Positions 2,295-39,749 of a stretch of 39,749 nucleotides of DNA are shown here, one piece after another. The notes beneath the pieces are model-generated. The model saw nothing but the letters and a program-made list of their open reading frames with translations. It was not told the DNA's origin and ran no database searches. Location: positions 1 to 39,749 of IMG/VR virus record IMGVR_UViG_3300023179_000236, one strand, 5' to 3'. A program made the position numbers and the translations under genes. Every line of letters starts with the position of its first letter. Positions within the stretch are counted from its first letter, which is position 1. This stretch comes from a virus.

Positions 2295-2320
2295 AAAAAA
2301 CCACCGTTTTGAGGCGGTGG
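2295..2320 (-). terminator. Intrinsic terminator after the major tail protein gene
   Basis: On the minus strand: stem CCACCG / CGGTGG with an 8-base loop, followed by six T residues. It sits about 40 bases after the major tail protein stop and before the tail chaperones. Partial termination here would lower expression of the tape measure and tail-tip genes compared with capsid and tail tube. Confidence 0.85.
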
Positions 2321-2356
2321 CTAGGGGTAAGGAAAGAAAGTTGTTAGGTTGGAAAA

Positions 2357-3259
2357 TTAAGACTTAACCAGCTTGATTGGGGTAGCTTCACTTGAATCTC
2401 TCAAAGCAGTAAACCCAATTGTAGCAACACGGCTGCCCGTACCAGTTTCATCAATAGAGTGGCTGGTGTATTTAATCGTGGGCATTGAGAAGGTATAAGT
2501 GCTAGTGCCGTCAGTTAGCGCAACACTTAATGAGCTAGCAGTTTCGTTTAAAAACTTATTTAACAAGCTAGCGCTTTCAAAGTATGCACTAAAGTTACCA
2601 GTTACCATAGCGGTGCTGTTTTCCAGTTGCGCCCCAGTGGTTGACCCAATAACAAAGTTAGCAGCCAAATTATTGTTAATCTCAAAATCAAGGCTAGTAA
2701 CAGTAGCAATAGAGCTGCCGCCCTCATTCAACACAGCGTTTAAGCAAGTCATAGGCTGGTTACCACTAGCAGCGGTTGGGGTTGCATCAATAGAGCCTGT
2801 GGCAGTAACCATGTTCTTGCCAAGTAAATCAAACTCGGCCATAACAAGTTCGTTTACATTCATCGAGAAACCAACACGGCTAACAGTCATACCAGTAAAC
2901 AAACGATAAACGCCACTAAGGTCATTCACACGCTCCTCAATGGTAAAACTTTTCTGGGTTGTGCCGATTTTCATAATGCCAGTGGAAATAGTGCTAAAGA
3001 AAGCACTTTCCAAGAAAGCATCATAATCAGTAGCCTTTAACTCGCACGAAATAGTGCCTTCAGCAGTTCTTACGCCGTGCTTAAGAAACTCACGCATTCT
3101 GTCGCTACGGATTTCACTACTTTCTAGAATCTCTTTAGACAGGTTTAAAGATGAGTTATTAACAGGTAGCAAAATAGTGGAGGGGCTACCAGGGGTTGTT
3201 CCCCATGTGGACTCTGCCACATAGGCTAAATCGGTTCTTGACGCTTGTGCGAATACCAT
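2357..3259 (-). CDS. Major tail (tube) protein
   Basis: A 300-aa protein. The N-terminus MVFAQASRTDLAYVAESTWG is typical of phage tail tube subunits, where a short pre-strand is followed by a statement such as AxESTWGTTP. The composition is rich in Ser/Thr/Asn and beta-prone throughout, with an Ig-like Ser/Thr-rich C-terminal third. It should polymerise into stacked rings around the tape measure. The start has a good AGGAG box 12 bases upstream. It follows the tail terminator gene and precedes an intrinsic terminator and the tail chaperones, as expected. Confidence 0.85.
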   Translation of the reverse strand: MVFAQASRTDLAYVAESTWGTTPGSPSTILLPVNNSSLNLSKEILESSEIRSDRMREFLKHGVRTAEGTISCELKATDYDAFLESAFFSTISTGIMKIGTTQKSFTIEERVNDLSGVYRLFTGMTVSRVGFSMNVNELVMAEFDLLGKNMVTATGSIDATPTAASGNQPMTCLNAVLNEGGSSIATVTSLDFEINNNLAANFVIGSTTGAQLENSTAMVTGNFSAYFESASLLNKFLNETASSLSVALTDGTSTYTFSMPTIKYTSHSIDETGTGSRVATIGFTALRDSSEATPIKLVKS

Positions 3260-4473: not shown

Positions 4474-4891
4474 GGCCAGCGCCCCTCATAGAGGAGTCAA
4501 ACTGCCCTACATAAAAAGCATCAGGCATCCTATTAGTATCAGCTCTCAAAGCGTCAACCTCACTCACATTGACACCAGTAGCCAATAACCCAGCACAAGC
4601 GTTCAATTCACCAGCCTTACGCTTGATATTGCTTGCCATTTCAGTAAAATGCTTTTGTAGCTGTGAGTACTTAACACTCACGCTCTCAATATCGGTATCC
4701 ACTTTACTGGCATACTTAGCCGCAATAGATAAGCAGCATTGTTCAGCAGCGCTAACATAGCCACCAAACAGCGTTACCATAGCGCTAATAGACTCATCCT
4801 CTAGATGATAATCATCACTATCGGTATCGCCAATAAAAAAACGCACCTTGCTAACGTCGTTGTCAAGGGCGGGGTTAAAACTAAAGCTCAT
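4463..4891 (-). CDS. Head-tail adaptor protein (gp6-like)
   Basis: A 142-aa, mostly helical protein. Near its start it has the pattern VRFFIGDTDSDDYHLEDE, typical of phage head-tail adaptors of the HK97 gp6 / SPP1 gp15 kind (VRxLIGDTD followed by an acidic segment and a helix). A long helix with AAEQCCLSIAAKYASKVD follows. These proteins form a ring under the portal. It starts a few bases after a 51-aa gene downstream of the major capsid, the usual neck position. Confidence 0.72.
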   Translation of the reverse strand: MSFSFNPALDNDVSKVRFFIGDTDSDDYHLEDESISAMVTLFGGYVSAAEQCCLSIAAKYASKVDTDIESVSVKYSQLQKHFTEMASNIKRKAGELNACAGLLATGVNVSEVDALRADTNRMPDAFYVGQFDSSMRGAGRVI

Positions 4892-4895
4892 TTAA

Positions 4896-5051
4896 TCAGC
4901 CTTTTACTGCCTCAATACGGCCAGCCGCTAAAAATCTTTTAATAGTGTCTTGAGACTTAGAACCAAAAGAGTCACCCAACTTGTAAAACTTACCCTCATG
5001 ATTGAAGGCCGTTAAACAAATGTAAGTAAGCTCTTTTGATTCTTTAGTCAT
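4896..5051 (-). CDS. Small protein between capsid and adaptor genes
   Basis: A 51-aa protein starting MTKESKELTYICLTAF and ending KRFLAAGRIEAVKG. It is a compact alpha/beta protein with the pattern 'strand, FYKLGDSF, helix, LAAGRI', as in small phage head proteins that follow the capsid gene and sit in front of the adaptor (a Rho-N-like or DUF7210-type role is possible but not provable here). Start and stop fit tightly between the neighbours, and the codon use matches them. Function unknown. Confidence 0.7.
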   Translation of the reverse strand: MTKESKELTYICLTAFNHEGKFYKLGDSFGSKSQDTIKRFLAAGRIEAVKG

Positions 5052-5062
5052 CTTAATTCACC

Positions 5063-6076
5063 TTACAAGCAATCGTACATAAAGTAACCAGTGTCAGTAG
5101 ATACGATTTCAGGGGCGTTGTGTAACACACCGTCAACCATAATTGCACCACGCTTATTGGGGTCATTCCAAGTGGCGATATAAACACCATTAGAACCACC
5201 GCCACCTTTGTAACCAGTCCAGTTAAAGTGGTAACCAGCAGCAGGGGTGTTCTTAGAAGGGGTGTCAGGTGCGTAGCTAATCAAGATGTTATCGCCAAAC
5301 ACTTCAGCCATAGAAGCGGTAGCGCCGTGGTTAGCAGTGTTGTAAATTGCACTAGATACAACTAGATTTTTCTCTTTAATACCTAGCGCACCAGCAATTT
5401 CAGCAGCACCTACTTGGCCATCACCCATACCGCTAGCACTAGAAATGCCTTTGGTATATTTAACACGCTCAATAACGGTGGAGTGCTTAGCAATTGCTCT
5501 GAACACTTTGTAGCTCATAGAAACGGTTAAGTCTTGGGCCATGATGCCAGTGGTTTCATAGATTTTAACTAAACCAGCTTCAATAGCATTCAAGGGGTTA
5601 GCAGCAGACTCACCAAACTTATAGAAGCCAGTGCCGCCAGTAGTACCCACAACGGTAGTACCCCAAACACCAGTAACTAAAGCGGTAGCAGCAAACTCAA
5701 GCTCTTGTTTCAACAACAACTGGTTAGTAATAAACTCAACAGCCGTTTGATACAAGTCAATCTGTCCACCAGCTTGGCTAGCAGCTTCACCAAACACCTC
5801 TAAGTCGATTGCATTAGCTAATGCTTTCAACTCACTACGGTAAGTGCCGTTGGTAATAGCGAACTGCCCAACAGGCGTATCAACTAAAGGCCCAACCTTT
5901 TCAGCTTGTGAGCGCATCATATCGGCTTTACTTAACTTATAGTAAACGCCTGCAATGTCACCTACAGCGATAGGCTTAAAGATTTTAGCCGCAACGTAGG
6001 CCTCTTGCTTTTGCATGTAAGCTGTAGAGATGTTACTCAAAACACCGTTAACAGCATATCCAGTAGGGTTACTCAT
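5063..6076 (-). CDS. Major capsid protein
   Basis: A 337-aa protein of the size and position expected for the coat protein, after scaffold and decoration genes. Features common to phage major capsid proteins of the Mu/encapsulin-like and E-like groups are visible: an N-terminal helix region (YMQKQEAYVAAKIFKPIAVG), a P-domain-like helix segment (ITNQLLLKQELEFAATAL), the motif LTVSMSYKVFRAIAKH and a C-terminal Gly-rich segment with the closing strands RGAIMVDGVLHNAPEIVS. It forms the icosahedral shell. The start follows a good ribosome binding site (AGGAG). Confidence 0.88.
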   Translation of the reverse strand: MSNPTGYAVNGVLSNISTAYMQKQEAYVAAKIFKPIAVGDIAGVYYKLSKADMMRSQAEKVGPLVDTPVGQFAITNGTYRSELKALANAIDLEVFGEAASQAGGQIDLYQTAVEFITNQLLLKQELEFAATALVTGVWGTTVVGTTGGTGFYKFGESAANPLNAIEAGLVKIYETTGIMAQDLTVSMSYKVFRAIAKHSTVIERVKYTKGISSASGMGDGQVGAAEIAGALGIKEKNLVVSSAIYNTANHGATASMAEVFGDNILISYAPDTPSKNTPAAGYHFNWTGYKGGGGSNGVYIATWNDPNKRGAIMVDGVLHNAPEIVSTDTGYFMYDCL

Positions 6077-22234: not shown

Positions 22235-22455
22235 TGGATGAAAAGGGCTTAGAAACGTATTACAAAAACCGTGGTGTGGCTTGGGTTGCCAGTAGTGGTT
22301 GTGACCATGAGGGCAAAGCACCTTTTGCCGCTGCCTACGATTTACTAACTGGTGAGACTATGAGCGATGATGATTTAAAAGCTCGCCTTAGCCTGTATAG
22401 TTTACAAAAGAGGATTGCAATTAATGAAACGAGACAAAATAATATTAACCGATAA
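22234..22455 (+). CDS. Small unknown protein
   Basis: A 73-aa protein starting MDEKGLETYYKNRGVAWVAS, with one CDHEG and a helical second half (SDDDLKARLSLYSLQKRIAI). It shares one base with the nuclease stop (TAATG) and overlaps the HTH gene by 32 bases. No motif recognised. Confidence 0.66.
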   Translation: MDEKGLETYYKNRGVAWVASSGCDHEGKAPFAAAYDLLTGETMSDDDLKARLSLYSLQKRIAINETRQNNINR

Positions 22456-22633
22456 AGAAAAGCAAGTGCTGCAACTAAGCGCTAATGGCTTTACACGGCA
22501 ACAAATAGCCGAAGTAATGGGTGTTAAGGTGGGCACAATTGCCTCACACATGCACAATATTCTTAAGCGCACATGTTCAACTCACAATGGCCATGTAATT
22601 GCAAAAGCTATTAGATTGAAATTGATTAAATAG
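22424..22633 (+). CDS. LuxR/GerE-type HTH regulator 1
   Basis: A 69-aa protein counted from the ATG at 22424 (GAGG about 10 bases upstream). It is a bare GerE domain: LTDKEKQVLQLSANGFTRQQ, then IAEVMGVKVGTIASHMHNIL and a third part VIAKAIRLKLI. There is no receiver or ligand domain. It probably binds DNA near promoters as a small activator or anti-repressor. It is at the end of the early unit, next to a second copy of the same fold. Confidence 0.85.
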   Translation: MKRDKIILTDKEKQVLQLSANGFTRQQIAEVMGVKVGTIASHMHNILKRTCSTHNGHVIAKAIRLKLIK

Positions 22634-22644
22634 GATAATAGAAA

Positions 22645-22875
22645 ATGAATGTAAACGGTGGCTGGCATAAAGTAATAAAAGAGAGTTTTCCCACCCAGAG
22701 GGAGATTCAAGTGCTTCAATGCGTTGCTGATGGCAACTCTCGTGCTTTAATTGCCAAGCTGCTAGGTATATCAACCCACACCGTTAATGCTCATATCAAC
22801 AGTGCGAGGGCTAAGCTTGGGGCTAAAACTACACCTCACGCCATTTCTATCTTAAAAGAAAAAAATTGCATATAA
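22645..22875 (+). CDS. LuxR/GerE-type HTH regulator 2
   Basis: A 76-aa protein with PTQREIQVLQCVADGNSRAL, IAKLLGISTHTVNAHINSA and RAKLGAKTTPHAISIL, a complete GerE DNA-binding domain without any sensing domain. It differs in most surface residues from its neighbour at 22424-22633, so the two are either old duplicates or separate acquisitions. Last gene of the rightward unit, a place where phages often keep their late-gene regulator; that role is inferred. Confidence 0.85.
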   Translation: MNVNGGWHKVIKESFPTQREIQVLQCVADGNSRALIAKLLGISTHTVNAHINSARAKLGAKTTPHAISILKEKNCI

Positions 22876-24109: not shown

Positions 24110-24256
24110 CTAAACCAAAACATCAAACTCTCGTTTATCGTTTAGTTCAACTTGCAGCGGGTCAGGCAATTTATGTGGCTCAGTATTATAATAGTACGTC
24201 GTTTTACCAGTAGGCCATTTAATGATAGCAATGGGATAATATCTAATCCTTTGCAT
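24110..24256 (-). CDS. Very small unknown protein before the holin
   Basis: A 48-aa protein, MQRIRYYPIAIIKWPTGKTT, ending NDKREFDVLV. The ATG at 24256 overlaps the HNH stop (TAATG). It is beta-rich and basic in the first half. It could have any small lysis-related or HNH-related role; nothing can be assigned. Confidence 0.6.
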   Translation of the reverse strand: MQRIRYYPIAIIKWPTGKTTYYYNTEPHKLPDPLQVELNDKREFDVLV

Positions 24257-24621
24257 TACGCCACCATATCTAGCTTAGACCCCTTGGGCAAGCTCTCCAA
24301 GTAGTCACGGTCAAAAAAACGTGGGTCTAGCGTCTGGTGCACTTCTTTGTGGCAGCAATCACACAACAGCACACACTTTGCAGCCTCACGCCTAACAACG
24401 CTTTTGGCTGTCCTAACAGGCATTGATTCAACTAAGTTGTGTAATGTTCTTATATCCAAGGTAAACGCCTTTTTGCGGGGGTTTCTATGGTGCATCTCAG
24501 CTCTATTATAAGGCAAAGGAGCAGCGCCACACTTAGCACACTGGCAGCCTCTCTCGTGCAACAGTCGATTCCTTATCTCAATACCCATAGGATAATCTAA
24601 GTAATTGAAATCAGCTCGCAT
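24256..24621 (-). CDS. HNH endonuclease-type protein
   Basis: A 121-aa protein with an HNH pattern: CQCAKCG (Cys at 28 and 31), EMHHRNP (44-45), and a C-terminal CVLLCDCCHKEVHQ. The two Cys pairs would bind a structural zinc, and the HH with the later His forms the nicking site. Unlike packaging-linked HNH proteins it is not beside the terminase but between fibre and lysis genes, so it might be a free-standing homing-type nuclease or have a local function. Good ribosome site AAAGG. Confidence 0.82.
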   Translation of the reverse strand: MRADFNYLDYPMGIEIRNRLLHERGCQCAKCGAAPLPYNRAEMHHRNPRKKAFTLDIRTLHNLVESMPVRTAKSVVRREAAKCVLLCDCCHKEVHQTLDPRFFDRDYLESLPKGSKLDMVA

Positions 24622-24957: not shown

Positions 24958-27900
24958 TTAAACTGATATTGCTTTTGTGTAAGTCATGCGAGTGCCTGCG
25001 TAAATAGTTGCTGTATTGCTGGTTACAGTTGCACCTTGCAAGGTGATGCTCCCTGCATTTACGCCATTAACCACACGAAAAGTCATGCGGAATGTAACTT
25101 CAACCCCTATGCCTGTGGCAAAAGTTGTGCCAAGTGTATTAATTGCACTTATTAATGAAGGTACTGGTGCGGCAGCAAGAGTTGCTCCACCGAGATAGGC
25201 TTCCCCTTTAATTGTGCATCCTGTTGGGGCTGCAATAGCTAATTTCATACCTGTTGCAGTTGTAGCTTTTGATGCCGTCCCTTCAATAACCACTGTGTAG
25301 ATTTCATTAGCAGCAATAGCAAAAGTAAGATTAGTGCTAACAGCGGTTGTGCTTGCGGTGTTAAAGTTAGCGGCAAGCACTTCAGACCCACCCTTTTGAC
25401 GCAACTCCATTTCATCGTAAACAGCATTTTTAGAAGGGGCTTGCGTTGTAACACCGTTCCAGCTTGAAGCATAAGCAGTATCAGAGCATATTAATGGTGA
25501 CCACGCTCCACCACTATTTTTGCCTTCAACAACCCCTGCATTATTGCGAAGCCCATAGCCAGTTGTGCCAAGCGTCGTTGAAAAATTTAAATAATCACCC
25601 CCATTAATCTGCATTGTCCCAAGGGTGCCAGTGTAACGTATACCAGTATCGCAATTAATTGACCAAGAAGTGCCCGTATCTCCTTTTGATGATTCAGCAT
25701 AAGTTTGGGCGTAGTATGTTTGGTCAGTATCCCCATTAAAATACAAGGATGTATTTAGATATGTACCTAACGCATCAATAGGAGAATCTGATATTTGAAG
25801 ACCGCCAGCTTTTATATTTAACGGAACACCTAGGTTTACTGCACCTCTGGCAACCCCAATACTTACTATGCCTTGGTCAAAATGCCCTGCAATATTTACA
25901 GAACCGCCTGATGCACTAAAATATCCTGCAATATTATACGATGACGTACCTGTGTTCGTTACCGTTGAGTACAAGCCGTAAGAAAGATGATTAGCATTTG
26001 CATTTGTACCAGAGCGTGCACTATTAAGCATATAAGTTGTACCACTAGCATCTCCCAAGCCGCTGGCACCCGTAAGTGTAACCATAGCGCCTGAAGCCAT
26101 TGCCCTTGAAACATCTAAAACTGGAGCGTTATTAAGAGCCCCAATAAGTTGAGTTCTACCCGTAACACTAAGCGCATAGGTTAATGACCCCGTTATACTT
26201 AGGTTTGCAGACGGGCTGCTATTATTGATGCCTATAGCATTTGCACTAGCATCAACAAAAAGGGCGTGAGTTAATCCTGTTGTTTTTACTCTGAAGTCAG
26301 TAAATGTTGTTTGCTGCCCATTAATTACAACACCATTTGAGCTATCCCACTTAAACGCCTCTGTATTAGTTGAACCACTTTGGAGTACAAAACTATTGAA
26401 GCTATTATCAGCATCGGTTGTGCCAAAAGTTACGTTTGAGGGAGATATAGCATATTGCTGTGTTGTTCCGTCAAAGAATGACCAACTGCCAGCGCCATCC
26501 AAAGTAAGTTCTTGCGAGCCAGAGCCAAGTCTAAAATCCCCACCTGTCAATTTAAGACTATTAAGTGAATGCGTTAAAACAACATCGCCATTATTCCAAT
26601 TAATTACCCCACCAGAGGCAAGAAACAAATCGCTCCACATTTTGGTGGTGGAGCCAAGCGCTCCCCCATCTGATGTGCCAAGTAGTAAGGACGTGTTAAT
26701 TGCTGTTGTACCGAGGTTTGACAGTGTAGTGTTAGCGCCTACATCTATAGCTAAATCACCAGTGCCTAAAATAGAACTACCGTTAATAGTTTTAATGTTT
26801 GTGCCTGATACAAGACTTGCTTGCTTGCTATCTAGTGCAGTTTGCAATCCCGATGTTTTCGCAATAGACAGCGCCGCATCGGCAATAGATGTAGCGTTGC
26901 CAACAGATGTTACCACACCCGTTAAATTGGCATTTGTGGTGACTGTGCCCGCTGTTAAGCCCGATGCTGTACCCGTTAAGTTTGTGGCTACACCTGAAGA
27001 CGGAGTGCCAAGTGCGCCACCATTAACAACAACTGAGCCAGCAGTTCCAATATTTACGCCAAGGGCCGTTTGCACACCTGTGCCAAAAGTAATTGCTGAT
27101 TGTTTACCGTTAAACGTGTTCCAATCGGCACTAGTTAAAAACCCTTTTTGGCTTGTAGTTGCAGCTTGCCCATTTGTATAGTCTATAGAAACCACGCCAC
27201 CAGTAGCGTTAAAATCACTGGCAGTAAACGTTGCCGCACCTTTAGTTGTTCCATCAGCCGCCGCATCGGCAATAGATAAAGTACGGTTTGCGGATAAGTC
27301 ACCACCGCCGCTCAATGGGGCCGTTGTACTAATCGTTCTTGCGGGCTGAACAGCAGTATTAGCAAGACCAAGGGAAGTATTAACCCCAGCATCAAGCTTG
27401 CCTGATGCTATAGAACTAGCCACAATGCTTGCCGTGATACTTGGCGTAGCGTCGTTATATGTAAAATCCAATTCACTTGAATCAACTAAAATTGAACCAA
27501 CAGCATCTTGGGCACGCTCATCCGTAAAATACAGGTTAGTGTTTTCAGTAACTTGTGATGTATTGTAGTCTCCGCTGGTAGCCACAACAGTGCCTGTGCG
27601 ACCAAACACACTAGATACACCTGTTACCAATGCGGCTATATTGCCTACAACTTTTTGGAAAGCTTGCAAGATAGTGTCAGTTGCCGCAACCGTACCAGCG
27701 CCAGCGGTAAACCCAGTTAAAACCTTACCAATAACAGCAGCATTAGAAACTGTTGTCGTTATTGCTGTTGCACCTGAACCACTAACTTCTCCAGATAATG
27801 TGATTGTTTGGTTACCCGTTAAATAGGTGTTTGTGTCAATGGATAACGTGCCATCACCACCAGATGTTTTGACAAAGCCATTACCAGTTAAGTTGCTTAG

Positions 27901-29655
27901 CTTTGCAATGTTTTGAGTAGTGTTTACAGTAATTGTATTAATTGAGCGGGTTAAACCAGTTGAGAATGTTAATGCATTTTCTTTGCTATTAAACGTGTCA
28001 TAATCTGCTTTCGATATAGTCCCCGATGTAACACCTATGGTGGATGCTAGGGGTATATTTAAAGTGTGTGTTGATGTTGCGCTTGTGAAAGCAGGTGCTG
28101 TTCCTGCAGAGCCTGTAGCAAAAGTTTGAGTTGCCGCTGTTAAACCACCAAGTGATGTTATTGCTGCTGTTAAATAGGTGCTGTTGTCATAAGTAATTGT
28201 CGTTCCCGTGGCTTTAACAAAGCCAGTGCCATTTAATTGTGCTTGCTTGCCGTTAAAGGTGGACCAGTCGGCACTAGACAAAGCGCCTCTACTAGAAGCC
28301 GATGCCGTAGGCACATTAAGTGTAATAACTGGTGTTGTAGTGCCATTAGCTACCGATGAGCTTAAATCTGTGCCTGTAGTCCCAAGGGTAAGCGCCGCAA
28401 CCGATGTGACTGTGCCACCTGAACTAGGGGAGGTGTTAGTTACTGTGAAATTGGGGTAAGTACCTGTTACGCTAATCCCTGTTCCACTGGTTAATGCAAC
28501 TGTTTGGTCTGGGGCAGTGTTAGTAATGGTTATTGTGTCTGTTGTGGCGTTTGTCGTTATAGCAATCCCAGTACCATTAGCCAATGTTAAAGTGTCCGAT
28601 GTGCTATCAGCTATCACATTAGATTGACCAGAAACAGCAATAGTAGAGAATAAATTTTGGTCGCCTGTATTGGTACCACTAGTGTTTTCTATAACCGTTA
28701 ATTGGGCATCAGTTACATAACGCTTGTCTACACTAGATGCAATATCCGCTGTTGTTGCATCAGCCCCAGCAGTAACTAATCCTTTTGCATCGTAAGTAAT
28801 CTTAGTTTTAGTTGCCCCAGTTATTGCGCTATTTTTATCGACTTTATTATCAAGCCCTGTCTTAAGTAAATTAACGGTTGGATACTTTGTGGTGTCAGTG
28901 TCTATTGTTGTGTTTTCTTTATTACCTGCATTTTCAGGGGTGTAACCTAAAGCGGGTTGCTTGCCATTAAGTTGTGTCTGTATAGAGCTTGTGACCCCTT
29001 TAACATAACTAATCTCAGTTAATGAAGGATACGTTGCGGTGTTTAAAGATGTTAGCGTCTTACTTGCCCCTAGCGATAACAACGTATTGGCCGTACCGTT
29101 ATCGTAGTTCCACCCGCCGTACAGTGTGCCATTAGCACCACCACCAGAACCATAGTGTAATACAACTGTGTCGTTATTCGTGCGCAATTCACCACCAGCG
29201 CTACTTGATGCTTTTACTATTGGGGTAGTTACGCTAGTTGAAAAAGCAGGGTTGTTTATTGTGGATACTGCTGGATTGGCTGGGTCTGTATTGTCTACTG
29301 TTATATTTGTGCCACCTGTAACGCTTTCAACACCACCACCGCTGCCATTAGCCCATACAGTGTCATAATTAGCATTGCTAGCCTTTTTAAGAACTTGGCC
29401 AGTTGTGCCACCCGTAGGCACGCCTACACCAGCAATACCCTCATTTAACCCTAAAACAATGCTAGTGCTTTCAACCGCAACAATAGGATTACCACTGCTA
29501 GAGATAACAACACTGCTTGAACTAACAACGCTTGTGCTCTCAGTTTGCCCACTTTGCTCAATTACTAAAACAAAAGGACTCTCAGTAGCGGCAAAGCTCC
29601 CATTTGTGCTGTTAATAACCAGCACTTCATTAGGTTGCTCAATCTTAACGCCCAC
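24958..29655 (-). CDS. Large repetitive tail fibre / adhesin-like protein
   Basis: A 1565-aa protein, rich in Thr, Ser, Asn, Gly and Ala, with few charged residues. It contains repeated units of the kind 'ADW.TFNGKQ' (for example SSADWSTFNGKQ, TSADWNTFNGKQ, KADYDTFNSKE), each followed by a short beta stretch, as in long trimeric fibres of phages and bacterial adhesins. The middle is beta-rich, and the last 150 residues form a distinct end domain (FTIVIEG-type strands, TGCTIKGEAYLGG, FRMTFRVVNG). No S74 peptidase motif was seen. It probably binds the host surface and follows the BppU-like and assembly genes of the fibre module. Confidence 0.8.
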   Translation of the reverse strand: MGVKIEQPNEVLVINSTNGSFAATESPFVLVIEQSGQTESTSVVSSSSVVISSSGNPIVAVESTSIVLGLNEGIAGVGVPTGGTTGQVLKKASNANYDTVWANGSGGGVESVTGGTNITVDNTDPANPAVSTINNPAFSTSVTTPIVKASSSAGGELRTNNDTVVLHYGSGGGANGTLYGGWNYDNGTANTLLSLGASKTLTSLNTATYPSLTEISYVKGVTSSIQTQLNGKQPALGYTPENAGNKENTTIDTDTTKYPTVNLLKTGLDNKVDKNSAITGATKTKITYDAKGLVTAGADATTADIASSVDKRYVTDAQLTVIENTSGTNTGDQNLFSTIAVSGQSNVIADSTSDTLTLANGTGIAITTNATTDTITITNTAPDQTVALTSGTGISVTGTYPNFTVTNTSPSSGGTVTSVAALTLGTTGTDLSSSVANGTTTPVITLNVPTASASSRGALSSADWSTFNGKQAQLNGTGFVKATGTTITYDNSTYLTAAITSLGGLTAATQTFATGSAGTAPAFTSATSTHTLNIPLASTIGVTSGTISKADYDTFNSKENALTFSTGLTRSINTITVNTTQNIAKLSNLTGNGFVKTSGGDGTLSIDTNTYLTGNQTITLSGEVSGSGATAITTTVSNAAVIGKVLTGFTAGAGTVAATDTILQAFQKVVGNIAALVTGVSSVFGRTGTVVATSGDYNTSQVTENTNLYFTDERAQDAVGSILVDSSELDFTYNDATPSITASIVASSIASGKLDAGVNTSLGLANTAVQPARTISTTAPLSGGGDLSANRTLSIADAAADGTTKGAATFTASDFNATGGVVSIDYTNGQAATTSQKGFLTSADWNTFNGKQSAITFGTGVQTALGVNIGTAGSVVVNGGALGTPSSGVATNLTGTASGLTAGTVTTNANLTGVVTSVGNATSIADAALSIAKTSGLQTALDSKQASLVSGTNIKTINGSSILGTGDLAIDVGANTTLSNLGTTAINTSLLLGTSDGGALGSTTKMWSDLFLASGGVINWNNGDVVLTHSLNSLKLTGGDFRLGSGSQELTLDGAGSWSFFDGTTQQYAISPSNVTFGTTDADNSFNSFVLQSGSTNTEAFKWDSSNGVVINGQQTTFTDFRVKTTGLTHALFVDASANAIGINNSSPSANLSITGSLTYALSVTGRTQLIGALNNAPVLDVSRAMASGAMVTLTGASGLGDASGTTYMLNSARSGTNANANHLSYGLYSTVTNTGTSSYNIAGYFSASGGSVNIAGHFDQGIVSIGVARGAVNLGVPLNIKAGGLQISDSPIDALGTYLNTSLYFNGDTDQTYYAQTYAESSKGDTGTSWSINCDTGIRYTGTLGTMQINGGDYLNFSTTLGTTGYGLRNNAGVVEGKNSGGAWSPLICSDTAYASSWNGVTTQAPSKNAVYDEMELRQKGGSEVLAANFNTASTTAVSTNLTFAIAANEIYTVVIEGTASKATTATGMKLAIAAPTGCTIKGEAYLGGATLAAAPVPSLISAINTLGTTFATGIGVEVTFRMTFRVVNGVNAGSITLQGATVTSNTATIYAGTRMTYTKAISV

Positions 29656-35079: not shown

Positions 35080-35718
35080 TTAAATCCTCTCAGCCGCTAC
35101 ACCAGCACTAGCAACAACTGAACCCACACGCATACGGCCAAAAATTAAAGGGATAGGGCCACCTTGGGCATTAGTGTTAATAGCCCCATTAAACAGAAAG
35201 CTTTGCCGTTGGTCAGCTTCAGGCCTGCCCGTGTATGAATCCACTTTTAAAGACGGTGTTAGCAACCCAGCTACCCCGCTTAATGCAGTGGCTAAACCAA
35301 TTGCAGCAATAGCACCATAAGTAATCCCAACGCTGCCAACACTAAAAGCTGTTACCCCTAAACCACTAATTCCAATAGTACCAGCAGCGCCACCGAAATA
35401 AATACCAGCCGCAACCAAAGCAACACCAATAACAATTTTAGCAATTTTGCCACCTTTACCACCTCGTCCTATCAATGCAGGCTCTAAGTGCATTTCGTTC
35501 TTACTACCAAACAATAAGCCTAATTCATTCTCATCTAAAGATGTTTCTGGCTTACGTTCGCCACGGTACACATGCCAATTGCCGTCACTAATAATCTGTC
35601 TAAAGCCTTGTAATTGGTGCAAAAGCCCACTCATAGCCATGGCGGGTGTCTCAACATCAAAACTAAAGCTTTCGCCAAACTTCTCTTTTAAAATGCCATA
35701 CAGGTAAACAGTTATCAT
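35080..35718 (-). CDS. Tail tip assembly protein I-like
   Basis: A 212-aa protein with an N-terminal ubiquitin-like beta-grasp start (ITVYLYGILKEKFGESFSFD), then AMSGLLHQLQGFRQII as in lambda gpI. The middle has two Gly/Ala/Ile-rich hydrophobic segments (about 95-160), and the C-terminus reads QGGPIPLIFGRMRVGSVVAS, a common match in lambda tail assembly I proteins. It works with the K-like protein in tip assembly. It overlaps that gene by 4 bases. Confidence 0.85.
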   Translation of the reverse strand: MITVYLYGILKEKFGESFSFDVETPAMAMSGLLHQLQGFRQIISDGNWHVYRGERKPETSLDENELGLLFGSKNEMHLEPALIGRGGKGGKIAKIVIGVALVAAGIYFGGAAGTIGISGLGVTAFSVGSVGITYGAIAAIGLATALSGVAGLLTPSLKVDSYTGRPEADQRQSFLFNGAINTNAQGGPIPLIFGRMRVGSVVASAGVAAERI

Positions 35719-36437
35719 TGTAAAGGCTCCCTATATCTAGCATAACACGCCATAAATGGCGCATAACGGTGAGCGCCTTCAATCCTGCTTAGCTGTAAGT
35801 CTAAGTGGTGTAATATCTTGCCGTCGCCGATATAAATACCAGCGTGATTAACCACATCAGAGCGAATCCGCATAAAAATTAAATCACCCTCTATAGGTTG
35901 CTCGCTTGTTTCAATCAACTTAAAGCCCTGTCTATCAAGGTTAGCCATGTAATGGTCTTGGTTAGCCCTATAAAAATCTTTTGAGCGGGGTTGCTCATCC
36001 AGTTCAATCTTGTAAGTGTGTCTGTAATAATCTTTAATCAATGCGAAGCAATCACCCTTGCCGTCTGTGCCAGTTGGCCCCCAACGGTATGGCCTGCCAA
36101 TAAATGGCGGTGACGGTACACCATTGCCCCAATAAAACAAATCTTCTCGTCCGTCATCATCTAGCACGCATAAGCCCCAAGGGATATTGCTATTAATCTG
36201 GCCAAGCATATCGGCCTCACTTGGGTAATCATTATTGCCATTGCCTTCAATAATGGGGTGGCTATGCACTAAAGCTAGTAATTCAACATCGGGCCAATCG
36301 ACATCAAACGAGTAAGCCTTATCAATGGCCTTATTCTCAATAGGCAGTAGCCCGCTTGCCGTAATCCCAATAACCCCCTCATTAGGATATACACCCTTTA
36401 GATAATCTATAATGCCTTGCCTGTATTGCTCAAACAA
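35715..36437 (-). CDS. Tail tip protein K-like, JAB protease plus NlpC/P60 peptidase
   Basis: A 240-aa protein with two enzyme domains, as in lambda gpK. N-terminal MPN/JAB domain: HSHP (H58, H60), then S73 and D76, the zinc site of JAMM proteases. C-terminal NlpC/P60 domain: GDCFALIKDYY (C130) and VNHAGIYIG (H198), typical of the Cys/His pair. It may trim a tail protein and cut peptidoglycan. Start TTG at 36437 with AGGAG 9 bases upstream. Confidence 0.92.
   Translation of the reverse strand: MFEQYRQGIIDYLKGVYPNEGVIGITASGLLPIENKAIDKAYSFDVDWPDVELLALVHSHPIIEGNGNNDYPSEADMLGQINSNIPWGLCVLDDDGREDLFYWGNGVPSPPFIGRPYRWGPTGTDGKGDCFALIKDYYRHTYKIELDEQPRSKDFYRANQDHYMANLDRQGFKLIETSEQPIEGDLIFMRIRSDVVNHAGIYIGDGKILHHLDLQLSRIEGAHRYAPFMACYARYREPLQ
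36408..36413 (+). promoter_or_regulatory. Possible -10 box for the plus-strand insert gene
   Basis: A perfect TATAAT on the plus strand, 38 bases before the insert gene start. No convincing -35 is found at the usual distance, so activity is uncertain. It lies inside the start of the K-like gene. Confidence 0.35.
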
Positions 36438-36451
36438 ATTAAACTACTCCT

Positions 36452-36811
36452 ATGAATATCTACCTAGACAAGTTTATGAGCCCACAGGCTATTGATGCCT
36501 TCAACGTTCATTATAATGGCTTAAAGCTGTTTGTTAAACCTAAAAACATTAAAGAACACTTAGCCTTGCTATTAGTGGCTGGTGAGCTTTATTACACCAA
36601 GATTAGCGATATTCAAACAGAAAATAACATGCAGGGCCAAGCCAAAATGAAACTTCTCATTGAAGCCACTGCCCTAATGGCTTACATTCATGGTTCTATC
36701 GCCACCTATGCAGAATCTAAAACAAACTGCGGTATAACACCTAGCTACGATTCAATAGATAGAGAGTTGAGAGAGCTTTACAACAAGCTAACTGTTAATA
36801 AAATTAGCTAG
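36452..36811 (+). CDS. Unknown protein on the opposite strand inside the tail-tip operon
   Basis: A 119-aa, mostly helical protein (MNIYLDKFMSPQAIDAFNVH, IKEHLALLLVAGELYYTKI, LRELYNKLTVNKIS). It fills the whole gap between the L- and K-like genes and points against them, overlapping the L stop by 8 bases. The minus strand has no long frame here, so the gap exists because of this gene. Its codon use looks normal, but no ribosome site is visible. By place and orientation it is a candidate cargo (moron) gene; function unknown. Confidence 0.68.
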   Translation: MNIYLDKFMSPQAIDAFNVHYNGLKLFVKPKNIKEHLALLLVAGELYYTKISDIQTENNMQGQAKMKLLIEATALMAYIHGSIATYAESKTNCGITPSYDSIDRELRELYNKLTVNKIS

Positions 36812-37514
36812 TACGCCCAACGCCAGGGAAGCCACTAAAAGGCAGCTCACCGTTTTGGCCGTACCTTGCCCTACAACCGTCTAGCGTCTTACTACATCTA
36901 TCCAAGCTTGGGTTTGTAGTAGGTTGGTTAGCCTTAGTGAAATAACTAGAGCCACTATAAGGGCATGGTGTTAAAGCATCATACTCAAACAAGCCTGTTA
37001 CTGTGTTGTAATATCTATAAACCCATGTGCAAGCATCCCTAAGCACTTGCCGTGCTGGCAACTTTTTGCCCTCAACGTCCACGCTCGCCGCTAACTTAAA
37101 CTCTATTTCATTCTTATTCATTAGCGTTTTTTGTTCAACATAAAAGATATCTACAGGAAAAGTAGCTGTAGGGTCTGCACCAGCCATACCGTCTAAAAAC
37201 TCTGCTAGGGTTCTAATGCGTGTAATCTTAGCCCCAAGCAAGTCATTATAAGCAATAACGGCTGATGTCATTGTGTTAGTTACGTTGCTAAGTCTAAGCG
37301 TAGGCGTTGGTAATGAACCCTTACCTACCCACTCAAAGCCAGTGGCCTCAATATCAATTGGCGTATAAGTAATGCCATTAAACACAATAGGGCTTGACCC
37401 GTTCACCATGCTTGTGAAGTGGTAAACACTATCACCTAAAGCAGTGGCATCTAGCTCAAACAGCGTAATGACAGCAGAGGGCGCTAACCCCTGTATGGAC
37501 TCGTTTAAGGTCAT
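36804..37514 (-). CDS. Minor tail protein L-like
   Basis: A 236-aa protein of the lambda gpL family: start LNESIQGLAPSAVITLFELD, then GITYTPIDIEATGFEWVGKG, PTPTLRLSNV, and the Cys-rich C-terminal part with DACTWVYRYYN, LTPCPYSG, DRCSKTLDGCRARYG and FSGFPGVGR. In gpL the Cys cluster binds an iron-sulphur cluster. It forms part of the tail tip cone. It overlaps the M-like gene by 4 bases. Confidence 0.92.
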   Translation of the reverse strand: MTLNESIQGLAPSAVITLFELDATALGDSVYHFTSMVNGSSPIVFNGITYTPIDIEATGFEWVGKGSLPTPTLRLSNVTNTMTSAVIAYNDLLGAKITRIRTLAEFLDGMAGADPTATFPVDIFYVEQKTLMNKNEIEFKLAASVDVEGKKLPARQVLRDACTWVYRYYNTVTGLFEYDALTPCPYSGSSYFTKANQPTTNPSLDRCSKTLDGCRARYGQNGELPFSGFPGVGRTS

Positions 37515-37861
37515 AAATCAAATACTTCCTCAATAGTCATTGTAAATCCGTAAACATCAGGCCCTATTACCTGCACCTGCCACTCCTTACAGGTAAATTT
37601 ACGGCTAGAGCTTTCCCATGGCAGCGTGTACTCAAAAGGCAAGTAACCCGCCACCGTGGTTTCGCAAAAGGTGTTTAGTGTGCTTAATTGAGCGGATGTT
37701 AAGCCTCTAAAAACTAACTGGCCCTCACGCTTAATATAATTTAATCCGTCAGGCGCTCTTAAGTTGTAACCGTCGCCAAAATCTACACGGTTTACCCTAA
37801 CCTTTGGGCCTACACTTGTGCCATCACGGCTTGGATTAATAGGGGGGCTAAAAGTGGTCAT
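37511..37861 (-). CDS. Minor tail protein M-like
   Basis: A 116-aa protein of the lambda gpM / DUF1833-like tail tip family: FGDGYNLRAPDGLN, LVFRGLTSAQLSTLNTF, EYTLPWESSSRKFTCKEWQV and the end MTIEEVFDL. It lies between tape measure and L-like genes with 4-base overlaps on both sides, exactly as H-M-L-K-I-J in lambda. It connects tail tube and tip. Confidence 0.92.
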   Translation of the reverse strand: MTTFSPPINPSRDGTSVGPKVRVNRVDFGDGYNLRAPDGLNYIKREGQLVFRGLTSAQLSTLNTFCETTVAGYLPFEYTLPWESSSRKFTCKEWQVQVIGPDVYGFTMTIEEVFDL

Positions 37862-39749
37862 GCAAAGCTAAGCCCCTTGTTTAATAAACCGCCTGGGCGT
37901 TGCTGGTCTTTAATTTGACTCACAACCATATTCTTAAGGGAATTTGTAACTTCCTCACCAATCTTTTTAGCCATAGCGTCGTCGTCCTCTTTTTTACCAC
38001 TAGAGCCACCCGATACATTAACAGTTACATTGTTATTAACTACATTGCCGCCAGAACCGCCGCCGCCTAAAGCTTTAACGCCTAGCTTGCCGTTAGCCCC
38101 TCTAGTGAGCGGCAAAATAGCTTCGGGGCCAGCCTCACCCATTAAACCAGTGTTGCCACCAGCGTAACCAAAGTAAGTGGGTGAAGTTACCACCCCACCA
38201 GTAGCATAGCGCTTAGCACCACTAGGGCTAACAACAGCCCCATCAGCAGCCGTTAAACCGAACGCCTTACCAATAGCAGTGATAGCTTTCATAATCAATA
38301 ACTGAATAATAGCTTTAGCAATCATTTTAGCTAAGTCACCCATAGCTTGACTAAAGCTTTTAGCGCCAACAATGGCATCTGCAAAGGCATCTGCAAAGCC
38401 CTCTTTTATTGTGTTAGCCACTTGGGCCATTTCTTGCCCTTTAGCTTTGGCTATATCCGTAGCTCTGCCAGTGTTAAGGATTGCAATTTGTGATTTTTTC
38501 CATGATTCAGCATACTTAGACACTTCACCATTAAGGCCAAGCATCTTTTGGTATTGAGCCTCTATAGATTGCAGCGCTAAGTCTTGTTCAACATTAGCAA
38601 AATCAAACTGCCCTGTAGCAGGGTTTAAACCCATTTTAGCCCCGCCATATGCTGCCTCCTCACGCTTAGCAGCCGCTAAGGACTCATTAACCTTTATTAA
38701 TTCAGTTTCAGCAGCCGCCTTTTGCTCTGCTACGAATCTTAAAGAGTTGCCAAAAAACTCTTGCCGCTTTTTTAACCTTGTGGCTCGCTCCTCTTCTGCT
38801 TTATCTAATGCCTTAATAGCATCGGCGCTATCTTTAGCCGCTTTTAACTGCTTATAGTAAGACTTAAACTCTGCATCGGTAAGCGTTACACCTTCAGCAC
38901 GCAACATGTTCTCTGCTTCAATGATATTTTTCATATTCTCATAGCTGGCCTCAGATTCTTTTCTGGCCGCTAATAGGCGTTGCATACTCTTTATTTCAAG
39001 CTCTACTTTGTCAATTAGCTTTTGTTTTCTTTTTAGGGCTTCCTCATCAACAGCCGTTGCCGCCGCCCCAGTAACACCGCTAACAGGGATATTACCAGCA
39101 ATCTTTAACGCTCTATCTATTGTGCTTGTATTGCCAGCGTTACCGCCACGCATAATACTCATTAAATCTACTGGGACACCATTAATGCGGCGTTCAGCAT
39201 GTAAGTGTGGGCCACTTGAAGTACCCGTGTTGCCCGACAACCCAATTGATTGCCCTTGGGCCACCATTTGACCTACCTTAACATTAGGTTTAGATAAGTG
39301 AGCGTAAATATCAGTAACGACCTTATTGCCTTGCTTGCCTGCAATAACAATCTTTTGGCCGTAGCCGTCTTTAGCGTCACCCACATAAACAACCGTACCT
39401 GTTGCCCCAGCCGTTACATTAGTACCCACAGGGGCTGCAAAATCAGTACCCTTGTGCTTATGGGTTTTACGTTGTTCTCCAAAGACACCCGTAATACTAC
39501 CCATTACTGGCCTTATGTAACCCTCGCCTTGGGCCGCTTTCATTAACGCCGCTTGGCCTGTTTTATCATCAAGCATCTGTAAGCCACGCTTTGAGGCCCT
39601 ATCTATCAAGGCTTGCTTAAAAGGGTCACCTTGAGCCGCTATATTAGCGCCGATACCAGCTAGCTTTTTGTCATTATTCCAGTTTTCGGGGTCAAATATG
39701 TTTATGCTTTGCAAAAAACTACCCATCATTTTTGCTGGGAATAATTCTT
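37858..39749 (-). CDS. Tape measure protein, C-terminal part with M23 peptidase domain
   Basis: This is the C-terminal 623 residues of the tape measure protein (from the in-frame Met at 39729) plus the repeat overlap. About 75-190 residues into this part, roughly 517-636 of the whole protein, is an M23/LytM-type zinc endopeptidase domain with the metal motif HKGTD, a YAHL motif and the HLH motif (GPHLHAE). It probably cuts peptidoglycan during DNA entry. After it come a long Ala/Lys/Glu-rich coiled coil and a hydrophobic stretch. The C-terminus is of lambda-type tape measure style, with GLMGEAGPEAILPLTRG followed by a Gly/Asn-rich linker. It overlaps the downstream minor tail protein by 4 bases (ATGA). 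Confidence 0.93.
   Translation of the reverse strand, partial: ELFPAKMMGSFLQSINIFDPENWNNDKKLAGIGANIAAQGDPFKQALIDRASKRGLQMLDDKTGQAALMKAAQGEGYIRPVMGSITGVFGEQRKTHKHKGTDFAAPVGTNVTAGATGTVVYVGDAKDGYGQKIVIAGKQGNKVVTDIYAHLSKPNVKVGQMVAQGQSIGLSGNTGTSSGPHLHAERRINGVPVDLMSIMRGGNAGNTSTIDRALKIAGNIPVSGVTGAAATAVDEEALKRKQKLIDKVELEIKSMQRLLAARKESEASYENMKNIIEAENMLRAEGVTLTDAEFKSYYKQLKAAKDSADAIKALDKAEEERATRLKKRQEFFGNSLRFVAEQKAAAETELIKVNESLAAAKREEAAYGGAKMGLNPATGQFDFANVEQDLALQSIEAQYQKMLGLNGEVSKYAESWKKSQIAILNTGRATDIAKAKGQEMAQVANTIKEGFADAFADAIVGAKSFSQAMGDLAKMIAKAIIQLLIMKAITAIGKAFGLTAADGAVVSPSGAKRYATGGVVTSPTYFGYAGGNTGLMGEAGPEAILPLTRGANGKLGVKALGGGGSGGNVVNNNVTVNVSGGSSGKKEDDDAMAKKIGEEVTNSLKNMVVSQIKDQQRPGGLLNKGLSFA
39614..39749. 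repeat. Terminal direct repeat, right copy
   Basis: Right copy of the overlap described at 1-137, one base shorter (GGG at 39737-39739). Reading the minus strand from the N-terminal half with this version would reach a TGA shortly after the run. The missing base is therefore probably an end-of-contig error, though a real variant in the population cannot be excluded. Confidence 0.93.

Follow-up and report, generated by a model that had tools for sequence, protein, structure and literature searches.

A viral genome from IMG/VR (IMGVR_UViG_3300023179_000236; the whole stretch analysed, 39,749 nucleotides, is referred to here as the window) has the gap between two of its tail genes filled by an open reading frame (ORF) that points against the tail operon. 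This arrangement raises the question of whether the ORF is a gene and, if so, how it came to lie there and what its product may do. The ORF (36452–36811, plus strand) starts with ATG, encodes 119 amino acids and lies, as the initial annotation had stated, between minus-strand homologues of the minor tail protein L (36804–37514; PF05100, E 2.7e-48; PHROG 18, E 9.8e-85) and the tail assembly protein K (35715–36437; PF00877 NLPC_P60, E 6.4e-16; PHROG 30, E 2.4e-45). It is convergent with L, whose stop it overlaps by 8 bp, and divergent from K, the two start codons being 14 bp apart. The start codon of K is TTG, and this assignment is backed by alignment with the K protein of a Halomonas phage. 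The M, I, J and tape measure genes also sit where that annotation had implied, and its statement that all other genes from the tape measure to lysis point leftward holds as far as the lysis region near 23 kb, with no further plus-strand gene recognised.

The ORF is very probably a real gene, being open beyond chance and gene-like in its codon usage. When the 374-bp gap was simulated 20,000 times with a Markov model, no frame of at least 119 codons arose on either strand, and the five other frames of the gap contain 8 to 15 stops apiece. Its codon score (0.161 per codon) is comparable to those of the phage's genes (range -0.05 to 0.52), and of 20 ORFs lying within other genes 19 score lower, whereas the five other frames score negative. 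No minus-strand ORF of at least 40 aa is present within the gap; with no gene on the opposite strand, the possibility that the ORF is an antisense shadow of another gene was ruled out. Its GC content (38%, compared with 44–45% for K and L) is low partly because of its amino acid content (GC2 0.29).

The signals for its expression are faint. Inspection of upstream regions revealed no Shine–Dalgarno sequence for the ORF, although such a motif precedes most of the phage's genes; portal and Erf are among the few that likewise lack a clear example. An upstream start is impossible because of an in-frame TAA at 36440–36442. The CTCCT just 5′ of the start is the complement of the AGGAG of K (36447–36451, minus strand), which was identified from the sequence and the upstream regions and abuts the ORF start codon on the opposite strand. 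Having this motif of its own at 36451–36447, K is independently translatable despite the insert. The start region of the ORF has almost no structure (-0.2 to -3.0 kcal/mol), and no Rfam RNA was matched. The initial annotation had proposed a promoter at a TATAAT (36408–36413, plus strand). The hexamer is present, but it makes a weak candidate (best -35 AGGATA, spacer 18, 9/12 overall) and is absent from the list of the standard scan. No rightward candidate upstream of the ORF exceeds 9/12, and scan counts are no higher than in shuffled sequence. A stronger match, TTAACA-16-TATAAT (11/12; 36510–36537, minus strand), lies inside the ORF and is aimed at K; the window contains two others as strong, and this one may drive K, I and J or have arisen by chance. 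A rightward terminator-like hairpin (37047–37061, plus strand) is found inside L, about 240 bp past the ORF stop rather than immediately 3′ of it, and may also be due to chance.

Relatives of the locus indicate how the ORF came to lie there. Loci were fetched by L, K and J, and 113 contained both L and K (some contigs counted twice). The L–K gap measures at least 150 bp in 14 of these; in the remainder, including a locus whose J is 49% identical to that of the window (L188), the two genes touch or nearly so, and the start of K overlaps or adjoins the L stop in many relatives. The ORF of the window is therefore an insertion, in agreement with the initial annotation, which had described L and K as normally adjacent. 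The same conclusion is supported by three pairs of sister phages, one filled and one empty: L209 and L203 (flanks 95.8% and 93.4% identical), L212 and L210 (87% and 86%), and L026 and L025 (84% and 76%). No same-genus relative with an empty L–K site turned up, and the insertion is deduced from more distant ones. Relatives of the whole phage were not found via the capsid, and distant ones only via terminase and J; a wide alignment of L was too diverse for scanning. No direct repeats, as a clue to the mode of insertion, flank the ORF. A conserved minus-strand gene at L–K in relatives, which the initial annotation had named as the observation to set against its reading, was not found for the lineage of the window.

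The L–K junction is a recurrent cargo slot, at which small genes are repeatedly gained and lost, often against the operon. Several unrelated slot contents were seen, four of which include a counter-operon gene. The Halomonas phage vB_HmeY_H4907, which is temperate (PMC10580944), its relatives (loci L006, L026, L019 and L022) and a further set (L206, L207 and L209) share with the window a small reversed gene that fills the gap at this same junction, and which in their case is absent in sisters. These genes, all counter to the tail operon, encode 77 and 79 aa in L006 and L026 (homologous to each other), 65 aa in L019 (6031–6228, minus strand) and L022, and 72 aa in L206, L207 and L209 (4660–4875, minus strand, in L209). 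The 65- and 72-aa proteins are homologous (about 39%), belong to no known family and are predicted to fold into one helix and three strands, with a pLDDT of 78.5 for the 72-aa protein. The 72-aa model has no significant fold match; AcrF10 and Acb4 appeared at E about 0.2, which is no evidence of relationship. The Halomonas relatives carry one sense and one antisense gene at L–K, and the extra sense gene beside L distinguishes the H4907 group from the window. Although loci L019 and L006 share 94% identity across the 4.4 kb that run onward from K, their antisense genes differ, the pattern expected from cassette replacement. In L198, the locus whose K matches best, the slot (2302–3220) contains a 47-aa Arc-like repressor on the minus strand and an endonuclease VII/HNH-like gene on the plus strand.

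Several filled L–K loci contain sense genes alone. An HNH gene is found at the junction in phage XT34, and a hypothetical gene in ACG-M12 and in a Salmonella plasmid-prophage; these three were picked for having a gap and give no measure of frequency. In some Salmonella prophages, sodC occupies the L–K junction. Gaps are also present at M–L and I–J, some of them perhaps gene-start errors, so that L–K is not the sole variable junction. At the neighbouring K–I junction, the Moraxella phage Mcat24 (L009) carries HicB-like (4494–4907) and HicA-like (4964–5152) genes on the minus strand, against the tail genes. Like the gene of the window, these are counter-oriented accessory genes, but they form a known toxin–antitoxin pair, whereas the window's gene is single and matches no such family. 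A limited search of open papers found none in which L–K is described as a slot that counter-oriented genes have in common.

The product of the ORF is predicted to be a soluble, five-helix protein. Its single-sequence AlphaFold2 model is all-helical (mean pLDDT 76, pTM 0.69), and no membrane segment was detected (best 19-residue hydropathy 1.16). It is an orphan: no homologues were found in Pfam, PHROGs, PADLOC, NCBIfam or PDB sequences, nor in phages, plasmids, viral contigs or genome contigs. When 398 genomes were searched with the ORF, it had only chance-level matches (best E 0.006 per genome) in frames of other lengths. Known defence and anti-defence families in PADLOC, Pfam and NCBIfam were not matched; such proteins are often orphans. 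Foldseek returned no match to the model at E < 0.1, and VIA-align values of up to 7.6 were at the level of unrelated helical bundles. Nor are the H4907-type and L206/L207/L209 slot proteins detectably related to it. The Halomonas-type 77/79-aa and 109-aa slot proteins score like shuffled sequence, and the comparison with the 65-aa protein (P 0.031) is not significant over four comparisons.

The remainder of the genome bears on whether the ORF could be expressed from a prophage. Models for integrase (PF00589), resolvase (PF00239) and the HTH_3 domain of CI-type repressors (PF01381) had no match in the genome, and prophage expression is therefore not supported. Erf and RusA genes are located on the plus strand at 19.6–22.2 kb. 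Near the end of this early cluster lie two adjacent small plus-strand genes (22415–22633 and 22645–22875) with LuxR-type (GerE) helix–turn–helix domains, which are possible late-gene activators. The late region includes an HNH endonuclease-like gene near the lysis genes (24256–24621, minus strand). Further genes of note are one for a 1565-aa protein without PHROG match downstream of J (24958–29655, minus strand) and the tape measure gene, whose product has an M23 peptidase domain (37858–39729, minus strand). Positions 1–137 and the last 136 bases of the window, both within the tape measure gene, are direct repeats of each other (99.3% identical). The genome thus appears complete and either circular or circularly permuted, the contig having been broken in that gene.

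We consider it probable that the ORF is a genuine accessory gene of the moron type at L–K, whose soluble helical product would be made from transcription outside the late phase and would bind a protein of the host or of a competitor. The moron reading had been put forward in the initial annotation, and it is well supported by the position and behaviour of the gene and fits a slot whose contents are unrelated from phage to phage. The role then suggested, exclusion or anti-defence, fared less well than the position: the protein has no detectable relative and no predicted membrane segment, and no integrase, resolvase or HTH_3 repressor domain was seen in the genome, which makes prophage expression less likely. 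Timing, promoter and function we infer as follows. Because the ORF converges with L and diverges from K, leftward transcripts that pass from L into K in the late phase would cross it in antisense; it would most likely be transcribed rightward, on the same strand as the Erf/RusA cluster, before or outside the late phase. A small, soluble protein would most likely act by binding to a protein of the host or of a competitor, and anti-defence or host takeover would be the best fit. In favour of the accessory-gene reading we count the open frame, the codon use, the filled and empty sisters, the counter-oriented slot genes and the lack of a transmembrane segment, together with a position antisense to lytic genes that has been described as typical of morons (PMC7067206). 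The missing Shine–Dalgarno sequence, the weak rightward promoter, the lack of a homologue, of a same-genus empty site and of visible lysogeny genes count against it.

Two known genes offer parallels. STMMW_20121 of the Salmonella prophage ST64B is a lone accessory gene antisense to lytic genes, in a position typical of morons (PMC7067206). Transcription from its own promoter has been measured, and the gene of the window is likened to it by position. Tab (tail assembly blocker) of the Pseudomonas phage JBD26 is a small orphan moron protein encoded in the late genes (PMC10884400) and is likened to the window's product by description; it has 83 residues, is encoded in the late operon between two terminase genes and acts from the prophage.

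Other explanations assign the locus a different product or role. The gene could serve the phage itself, encoding for instance a tail-tip chaperone or a small regulator, with its place on the other strand being incidental. Its compact fit between L and K and the Arc-like repressor in the L198 slot agree with this, but sister phages live with the slot empty and the protein shows no similarity to regulators or tail proteins, and we regard such a role as unlikely. Comparably improbable is that the product is an antisense RNA, in which case a rightward transcript running into L would limit tail genes, for example those of a superinfecting sister phage. A precedent exists in STnc6030 of the Salmonella prophage BTP1, which is antisense to late genes and excludes BTP1 (PMC7067206), and both the convergent overlap with L and the lack of a Shine–Dalgarno sequence are compatible with an RNA. 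However, the whole gap is open in one frame with gene-like codon use, the antisense genes of related slots encode proteins conserved across different phages, and, without read-through of the transcript, just 8 bp of L are overlapped.

Quite unlikely, in our estimate, is an untranslated ORF in a gap that acts as a spacer or as the site of a promoter reading leftward into K, I and J: the internal leftward promoter-like site, the missing Shine–Dalgarno sequence and the lack of a homologue would suit it, but the simulations, the codon scores of all six frames and the fairly confident single-sequence fold model argue for translation. The HK97 gp15 gene, another moron to which the window's gene is likened by description, is located among tail genes. 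A prophage-expressed superinfection exclusion protein of this kind, which blocks DNA entry at the membrane, would match the location of the ORF inside the tail genes, and gp15, as cited in PMC10883804, is a moron product with such a role and a predicted inner-membrane protein. The protein of the window, in contrast, has no membrane segment, which makes a gp15-type function unlikely, and the lysogeny domains sought in the genome were absent; we give this explanation very little weight.

Structural operons are already known to harbour morons, some of them antisense to lytic genes, and the locus described here adds a new orphan protein, and with it a family with a predicted fold. Returning to the moron-type accessory gene, a broader and rather doubtful extension would be that L–K is a general docking site for counter-operon genes that are silenced late and made before the late phase or in lysogens, the orphan being one of an unrelated set with anti-defence or exclusion roles. 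L and K are easily recognised and normally touch, and their junction can therefore be mined in lambda-type phages for small accessory genes. The reversed orientation gives a simple prediction of when such L–K genes are made, and, if they share anti-defence or exclusion roles, the junction would become a guide to new ones.
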